From Chloroflexi bacterium GWB2_49_20 (GTDB lineage Bacteria > Chloroflexota > Anaerolineae > Anaerolineales > Villigracilaceae), in the NCBI GenBank assembly GCA_001796335.1, contig MGMF01000014.1, positions 9,982-73,981 on the forward strand: a stretch of DNA of 64,000 bases, written 5' to 3'. Positions 16,618-18,452 of the stretch are shown here, in pieces. Positions within the stretch are counted from its first letter, which is position 1. The number at the start of each line of letters is the position of its first letter. A model generated the notes under the pieces. It was not told where the DNA came from, did not search any database, and saw only the letters and a program-made list of their open reading frames with translations. The translations under genes and the position numbers were made by a program.

Positions 16618-16655
16618 GGAATCAAAATTTGAAAAGAACCATTGGAAATCTGTTT

Positions 16656-16901
16656 ATGTTACTAAAGATCAATATTGTTTATTGTGCAGTCTGACATTAT
16701 ACCGACCGGGCCGTTGACCTGGTAAAGACATTAATCAAGAACTTTGAACCCGAAATCGACAGCATCAGCCTGCAACCTTCAGATGGAGGCAGGTTTGAAG
16801 TGGAAGTGAATGGATCCCTGGTCTATTCCAAGCTCCAAACCGGACGGCACGCCGAACCAGGTGAAGTGCTTGGTCAGGTAAGAAAAATTCTATCTCAGTG
16901 A
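16656..16901 (+). CDS. SelW/Rdx-family selenoprotein with in-frame UGA (CxxU)
   Basis: An 81-residue thioredoxin-like protein of the SelW/SelT/SelH (Rdx) family, read through a UGA at 16692-16694. The redox motif is C10-A-V-U13 in VYCAVUHYTDRA, exactly where the family has CxxC or CxxU. Downstream the family pattern continues without a stop: ISLQPSDGGRFEVEVNGSLV, then YSKLQTGRHAEPGEV, ending at TGA 16899-16901. A candidate SECIS hairpin starts 11 bases after the UGA. The ATG has a weak GGAA eight bases upstream. The stop lies eight bases before the trpS ATG, so the two genes are probably co-transcribed. UGA as tryptophan is unlikely because many genes in this window end in TGA; a nonsense mutation is the main alternative. 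Confidence 0.8.
16692..16723 (+). promoter_or_regulatory. Selenocysteine UGA codon and candidate bacterial SECIS hairpin
   Basis: After the UGA (16692-16694) and a 10-base spacer, ACCGGG (16705-16710) pairs with CCTGGT (16718-16723), one G-U pair included, closing the seven-base loop CCGTTGA. The loop contains a GU about 19-20 bases after the UGA, which fits bacterial SECIS elements that sit inside the coding region directly 3' of the UGA with a G-U in the apical loop. The six-base-pair stem is short, so folding should be computed. Confidence 0.5.
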
Positions 16902-16909
16902 GGCAAAGT

Positions 16910-17902
16910 ATGTCCGTCAAAAAAGGCCGTGTTTTCTCAGGCGCCCGTCCAACCGGGCGACAGCATCTCGGTAATTACCTGGGAGCCATCAAGAATTATG
17001 TAGCCATGCAGGATGATTATGAATGTGTCTATTGCATTGTCGATATCCATGCCCTGACCACGGTGGAAGATACATTCAACTTGCGCCAAAATACCTATGA
17101 TATGGCTCTTGATTGGCTGGCAGCCGGCATCCGCCCGGAAGAAACCATCATGTTTGTACAATCACAGGTACCCCAAGTGACGGAATTGCATACTTTCCTC
17201 TCCATGGTCGCACCGCTGGGTAAACTTACCGACCTGCCAACCTTCAAGGAAAAAATTCGTGAGAACCCCAACAATGTAAATTATGGCCTGGTGGGTTACC
17301 CGGTCTTGATGACAGCAGATATTGTCTTATACCAATCCAACCTGGTACCCGTGGGAATTGACCAAGCGCCTCATATTGAATTTGCGCGCGAGCTGGTTCG
17401 CTCCTTCAATTACCGTTATAACTCGGATGCCCTGATCGAACCGCAAATGAAAAATACCATTATCCCCAAAGTACTGGGAATTGATGGCGTCAATAAGATG
17501 GGCAAGAGCCTCAATAATCACATCGAACTGGCTTCCACACCTGAAGAAACACAGAAGCGTATCTCCAAGATGGTGACAGACCCGCAGCGCATTCGCAGAG
17601 ATGACCCCGGCGATCCGGATGTATGCAATGTCTTCTCCATGCACAAGATCTTCTCTCCCGCCGGGGAAGTGGAAATGATCAACGTGGAATGCCGCCGGGC
17701 AGGTATCGGTTGTGTGGAATGCAAGAAACGCTTTGCGGCTAATTTGAACGATCACCTGGCACCGTTCCGCAAGAAACGTATCGAACTGGATGCCAACCCC
17801 CAGGCTGTCTGGGATATCCTGCACGATGGAGCCAAACGCGCCCGTGTTATTGCCGATCAGACCATGGCAAAAGTGCGCGCAGCCATTCAATTGCCCCTCT
17901 GA
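16910..17902 (+). CDS. trpS: Tryptophanyl-tRNA synthetase
   Basis: A 330-residue class I aminoacyl-tRNA synthetase that charges tRNA-Trp. The HIGH-type motif appears as TGRQHLGN at about 15-22 within GARPTGRQHLGNYLGA, and the KMSKS-type loop appears as KMGKSLNN at about 200. A GAGG six bases upstream supports the ATG at 16910; a GTG at 16898 would overlap the selenoprotein stop. Length and order of motifs are normal for the bacterial enzyme. It is the second gene of the apparent selW-trpS unit. Confidence 0.95.
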   Translation: MSVKKGRVFSGARPTGRQHLGNYLGAIKNYVAMQDDYECVYCIVDIHALTTVEDTFNLRQNTYDMALDWLAAGIRPEETIMFVQSQVPQVTELHTFLSMVAPLGKLTDLPTFKEKIRENPNNVNYGLVGYPVLMTADIVLYQSNLVPVGIDQAPHIEFARELVRSFNYRYNSDALIEPQMKNTIIPKVLGIDGVNKMGKSLNNHIELASTPEETQKRISKMVTDPQRIRRDDPGDPDVCNVFSMHKIFSPAGEVEMINVECRRAGIGCVECKKRFAANLNDHLAPFRKKRIELDANPQAVWDILHDGAKRARVIADQTMAKVRAAIQLPL

Positions 17903-18014
17903 AATAGAACAACCGGGGCGCCACATTTAGCTTCCCTCTCTCGTTTGTTTGAGAGGACTTTGAAAAATTATTCTTTATACACCAGGATAAATCCTGTGGT
18001 GAGAGGGGCTGCCA

Positions 18015-18452
18015 GTGAGAGCACTTCTGCAAAGAATATCCCACGCAAAAGTGAGCGTCAACGGGAAGGTCATCGCCGAGAGCGGACCTGGCCTGGTCAT
18101 TCTGCTGGGCGTCGGCCATACAGATGGGGAAGAACAGGCCCTTTTTCTGGCGCAAAAGATATCCAACCTGCGCATTTTTGAAGATCAGGATGGCAAGTTC
18201 AACCACTCCATTCTGGATATCAGCGGTGAGGCCATCGTCGTATCACAATTCACCCTGTACGCGGATACACGCAAAGGCAGGCGGCCTTCCTTCACGGACG
18301 CGGCTTTGCCTGGGACCGCCAGCCCCCTGGTAGATCGTTTTGTGGAATTGCTGTCTGCCCAGGGAGTGGCAACCCAAAAAGGGGAATTCGGGGCACACAT
18401 GCTGGTCGAGATTCACAATGATGGCCCGGTTACCATCTGGCTGGAAAAATAA
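18015..18452 (+). CDS. dtd: D-aminoacyl-tRNA deacylase
   Basis: A 145-residue DTD-type enzyme that removes D-amino acids, and glycine mischarged on tRNA-Ala, from tRNAs. The two family signatures are intact: SQFTLYAD at about 77-84 and the cross-subunit NDGPVT at about 136-141. Translation starts at GTG 18015 after GAGAGGGG. It follows trpS by about 110 bases on the same strand, which groups two tRNA-charging functions. Confidence 0.96.
   Translation: MRALLQRISHAKVSVNGKVIAESGPGLVILLGVGHTDGEEQALFLAQKISNLRIFEDQDGKFNHSILDISGEAIVVSQFTLYADTRKGRRPSFTDAALPGTASPLVDRFVELLSAQGVATQKGEFGAHMLVEIHNDGPVTIWLEK

Follow-up and report, generated by a model that had tools for sequence, protein, structure and literature searches.

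A reading frame in the window, the 64,000-nucleotide stretch of DNA from Chloroflexi bacterium GWB2_49_20 analyzed here, continues past an in-frame TGA, which raises the question of whether that codon is read as selenocysteine (Sec) or marks a broken or misread gene. The comparisons described below indicate that positions 16656-16901 almost certainly hold a functional gene for a SelW-like (Rdx family) selenoprotein in the Anaerolineales, with a predicted SECIS element, a predicted redox role, and a transcript that is probably shared with neighboring genes. The features of the gene are as follows.

16656..16901, + strand: selW-like selenoprotein gene (translation; Pfam Rdx; TIGR02174; one TGA kept in 46/46 homologues)
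16692..16694, + strand: UGA predicted to be read as selenocysteine in a CxxU motif, C10-A-V-U13 (aligned codon TGA, TGC, or TGT; Sec machinery)
16705..16723, + strand: SECIS-like mRNA hairpin with a 6-bp stem, 16705-16710 paired with 16718-16723, and the loop CCGUUGA at 16711-16717 (fold; comparative support)
16644..16647, + strand: GGAA ahead of the selW start codon, a possible ribosome-binding site (sequence inspection only)

From the ATG at 16656-16658 on the + strand to the terminating TGA at 16899-16901, the frame is interrupted only by the TGA at 16692-16694. When this codon is translated as Sec, the read-through product is a protein of 81 amino acids (MLLKINIVYCAVUHYTDRAVDLVKTLIKNFEPEIDSISLQPSDGGRFEVEVNGSLVYSKLQTGRHAEPGEVLGQVRKILSQ) with Sec as residue 13 and the redox motif C10-A-V-U13. 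The initial annotation had proposed this read-through, with coordinates and sequence that proved exact, and had placed the protein in the Rdx family. The family assignment was borne out by a match to the whole Pfam Rdx profile (PF10262; profile positions 1 to 74 of 74; E value, 1.3e-20; 73.8 bits compared to a cutoff of 22.6) and by a score above the cutoff of NCBIfam TIGR02174 (61.4 bits compared to 34.2). Seven sequences of solved structures were matched at E values of up to 0.001, the best of which is named selenoprotein W-related. Because standard gene callers stop at UGA, the gene is likely to be absent or shortened in annotations of the Anaerolineales, whose members are widespread and for the most part uncultured.

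An AlphaFold model of the product, built from 38 homologues, had a mean pLDDT of 96.4. The model matched the solved bacterial SelW-related proteins 2p0g, 2fa8, 2obk, and 3dex with TM scores of 0.85 to 0.92 and mouse SelW with a TM score of 0.73. A strand at residues 3 to 10 is followed in the model by the C-A-V-U motif, giving the product the arrangement by which members of the family are recognized, a thioredoxin-like fold whose first strand ends in CxxC or CxxU.

In order to evaluate the hairpin, which starts 11 nt after the UGA, its fold was compared with the published bSECIS model (stem, 4 to 16 bp; loop, 3 to 9 nt; UGA-to-loop distance, 16 to 37 nt; energy, ≤ -7.5 kcal/mol; quoted in PMC13188914). 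The window hairpin fell within these ranges, with a stem of 6 bp, a loop of 7 nt, a UGA-to-loop distance of 16 nt, and an energy of -8.0 kcal/mol; its pair probabilities were 0.95 to 0.99. No relevant match was obtained when the region was searched against Rfam at E values of up to 5.

It could be argued that the gene does encode a selenoprotein but that this hairpin is a by-product of the coding sequence, the true SECIS being another structure or an unpaired one. The window hairpin taken alone was not above chance (z, -0.45; 64 of 200 shuffles folded as well), and its loop agreed only marginally with the published rule that a G occupies one of the first two loop positions (quoted in PMC13188914). 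The G is at position 3 of the minimum-energy loop CCGUUGA in the window and at position 2 in relatives, in which the loop is CGUGA, and the window conforms only if a C-A mismatch or a weak C-G pair (probability, 0.11) is counted as closed. Among 34 same-family sequences, the window was the only one with A at the loop-closing position. A further point in favor of the by-product explanation is that the hairpin of other lineages within the order is displaced 4 to 5 nt downstream and takes a form like GCCGUC-AGUUU-GACGGC.

However, across the 34 same-family sequences the six-pair structure was paired in 95.6% of cells, compared to 3 to 53% when the structure was slid, and none of 500 shuffles reached its covariation score, a control that the relatedness of the sequences inflates. 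The Arg codon CGG pairs with the Leu codon CTG and CGA pairs with TTG, changes that are synonymous on both sides and keep the pairing as G-C becomes A-U (Fisher P value, 4e-5 where the grouping ignores that pair). The CGA/TTG state was present in only four sequences from two genera, three of them from one genus, and may represent as few as two events. This covariation was confined to sequences whose hairpin includes the pair; in those with a displaced hairpin, the covarying pair of the first register no longer covaries, which also argues against a coding by-product, an explanation that we consider unlikely. Because the hairpin is conserved in relatives with synonymous compensatory changes, the element at 16705-16723 is very probably the SECIS. 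The SECIS hairpin suggested in the initial annotation was thus upheld in its 11-nt spacing and gained comparative support, but the fold of the window copy and its fit to the loop rule did not lend it the same weight.

Shifted hairpins were found, for example, at loci L030, L031, L084, L085, and L105, with the protein still similar, and two cases were within the same family (L085 and L087). The comparative set therefore offers a case in which the predicted SECIS hairpin shifts position while the protein is unchanged.

The genome (3.37 Mb in 28 contigs) was found to encode the full selenocysteine machinery: tRNA-Sec with the anticodon TCA (67.1 bits compared to a gathering threshold of 47, with agreement from ARAGORN), SelB (340 bits; cutoff, 242), SelA (549 bits; cutoff, 268), and SelD (369 bits; cutoff, 125). 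Thus, the search for selA, selB, selC, and selD that had been proposed as a check recovered all four. The selD gene (L043; C1:30594-31523 of the same genome) likewise encodes a selenoprotein, its in-frame TGA falling in CAGU (SNCAGUASK), so that there are at least two UGA-recoded genes in the genome.

The distribution of the machinery was compared with that of the gene in a set of 61 genomes that comprised this genome and others of its family and order. SelB above the cutoff was missing in 10 relatives. In seven of these, full-length SelA and the SelB-specific domain were also not found, and none of the seven had the Rdx gene. The other three (G034, G038, and G054) had the Rdx gene together with either SelA, a fragment of SelA at the edge of a contig, or a fragment of SelB. 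Because each holds SelA or SelB genes or fragments, these three are incomplete assemblies, and they were dropped as possible examples of the gene without the machinery. The UGA-containing selW was present in 46 of the 54 genomes with Sec machinery (genes or fragments) versus 0 of the 7 without it (Fisher P value, 1.5e-5, with genome kinship ignored). The gene was missing in eight machinery-bearing genomes, which indicates that selW is dispensable.

These results bear on whether the UGA might be decoded not as Sec but as Cys or Trp, by near-cognate readthrough or under a changed code. Some homologues have Cys at this position, suggesting that Cys would be chemically tolerable there, and trpS adjoins selW. 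However, UGA is a normal stop codon here, ending 21 of the 47 long open reading frames in the window, selW included, and the gene is missing from all seven relatives that lack Sec machinery. Thus, decoding as Cys or Trp seems very improbable. The full machinery and its co-occurrence with the gene instead support the implication of the initial annotation that this lineage inserts selenocysteine, and they point to selenium insertion at residue 13.

The UGA itself was highly conserved. The Rdx gene was detected in 46 of the 61 genomes, with exactly one in-frame TGA in all 46, and in every extracted locus of the order the TGA aligned to one and the same codon. As the proposed alignment of homologues for Sec or Cys had anticipated, every searched relative within the order had Sec, and some Chloroflexota of other groups had TGC or TGT as the corresponding codon. 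In a wider draw, the gene was present in 138 of 301 Chloroflexota genomes. Among the matches listed in that draw, every one from the same order and class had TGA, and those without an in-frame stop were from other classes, with TGC or TGT where the codon was extracted. The closest named relatives of the protein were from metagenome-assembled genomes of Anaerolineae or Anaerolineales, the best at 74% identity. With these Chloroflexota as relatives, a deltaproteobacterial source, which the known distribution of the family had suggested, was set aside. UGA-containing SelW-like genes were also seen in planctomycete metagenome-assembled genomes (L111 to L115, four so named and one from an unnamed bacterium).

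In the relatives, the frame is open on both sides of the UGA. When the window was compared with 33 relatives of the same family, the changes after the UGA numbered 628, 482, and 1,282 at codon positions 1, 2, and 3, respectively, which is the pattern of a translated sequence. The initial annotation had named sister genomes with a stop codon plus other lesions as evidence that would count against the gene; in these genomes the UGA was kept and other lesions were absent, which rules out both a pseudogene and an error of sequencing. Any one genome could acquire a lone TGA in an otherwise open frame by mutation or error, but one TGA in every homologue from separately assembled genomes of many genera and families, at the same codon where extracted and followed by an intact frame under protein-level constraint, already refutes on comparative grounds a pseudogene or assembly error in which a nonsense mutation or the misreading of TGC or TGT produced the TGA, and the chance of either is negligible.

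If the codon is read as Sec, then at a ribosome arriving at the UGA at 16692, SelB with Sec-tRNA(UCA) would bind the hairpin at 16705-16723, Sec would be inserted, and termination would be avoided. Translation would continue to the UGA at 16899, which is expected to have no recoding role, and the protein would end there. The product would adopt a thioredoxin-like fold whose first strand ends in the C-x-x-Sec pair, where a selenenyl-sulfide is expected, and might serve as a small redox protein that handles thiol-disulfide exchange or peroxides. The same mRNA contains both the putatively recoded UGA and a terminating UGA, as is also the case in a sizeable minority of the relatives.

Two genes follow selW on the same strand.

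16910..17902, + strand: trpS, tryptophan--tRNA ligase of 330 amino acids (TIGR00233, 287 bits compared to a cutoff of 176.75)
18015..18452, + strand: dtd-like gene, which we take to encode a D-aminoacyl-tRNA deacylase (open reading frame, named by recognition)

An 8-nt gap separates the selW stop from the start of trpS, the only copy of that gene found in the genome. Among 60 distinct clade sequences, the next gene after selW on the same strand was trpS in 53, dtd directly in 5, and neither in 2, and one of the latter two loci ends at a contig edge. The usual order, selW-trpS-dtd (16656-18452 in the window), was found through most of the order, with trpS missing between selW and dtd in five relatives. 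Outside the clade, neither trpS nor dtd was found beside the Rdx gene. The spacing between selW and trpS was ≤15 nt in 30 of the 57 loci with an adjacent trpS, with longer gaps in the rest. A promoter scan upstream of selW did not find a forward promoter-like site. An operon is supported by the tight spacing and the conservation of gene order, and selW is probably transcribed together with trpS and dtd. The earlier suggestion of cotranscription with trpS was thus strengthened by the 8-nt gap and the conserved linkage, and it remains an argument from spacing and order.

Because only 8 nt separate the sole trpS from the selW stop, which its likely ribosome-binding site overlaps, read-through of the UGA in selW could be coupled with translation of this gene. 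Adjacency is what was observed, and the longer selW-trpS gaps in the remaining loci argue against coupling as a general rule; we regard it as decidedly unlikely. If coupling did occur, the supply of TrpRS would drop when selenium is short, which would amount to selenium-responsive control of tryptophanyl-tRNA synthetase. The conserved trpS and dtd neighborhood may offer a clue to the role of bacterial SelW-like proteins, which is not yet settled.

Bacterial SelW-like CxxU selenoproteins have been described previously. A part of a 2006 survey already lists them for Geobacter sulfurreducens, Desulfotalea psychrophila, and Symbiobacterium thermophilum and reports three Chloroflexi selenoproteins, with their families unstated in that part (PMC1794560). 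SelW-like proteins are the most abundant selenoprotein family in ocean metagenomic samples (PMC2398784), and a 2026 review describes SelW-like selenoproteins as predicted with high confidence (PMC13188914). The novelty is therefore lower than the initial annotation implied. Among openly licensed papers, nothing specific was found on Anaerolineae selenoproteins or a selW-trpS operon, and no report was found of a uniform Sec form in the order, the trpS-dtd linkage, or a SECIS hairpin with two positions. The selW-like gene is a solid, expected addition to the known SelW family and not a new kind of thing, and with it the Anaerolineales gain a clean, near-universal selenoprotein.

The gene shares with the known bacterial SelW-like selenoproteins (PF10262/TIGR02174) the Pfam family, CxxU encoded via an in-frame UGA, a hairpin 3' of the UGA, and Sec machinery in the genome. 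It differs from them in lineage (Anaerolineales, Chloroflexota) and in its linkage to trpS and dtd. The SelT/SelW/SelH subfamily of Campylobacterota (NCBIfam NF041051) was matched over nearly the whole model, but the score of 68.6 bits is below the cutoff of 88, and thus the protein does not belong to that subfamily. The structures 2p0g (Vibrio cholerae), 2fa8 (Agrobacterium), and 2obk (Pseudomonas fluorescens), of the Cys-type Rdx proteins, have the fold in common with the modeled product (root mean square deviation, about 1 Å) at 26 to 34% identity, and the window protein is predicted to have Sec where these three have Cys.
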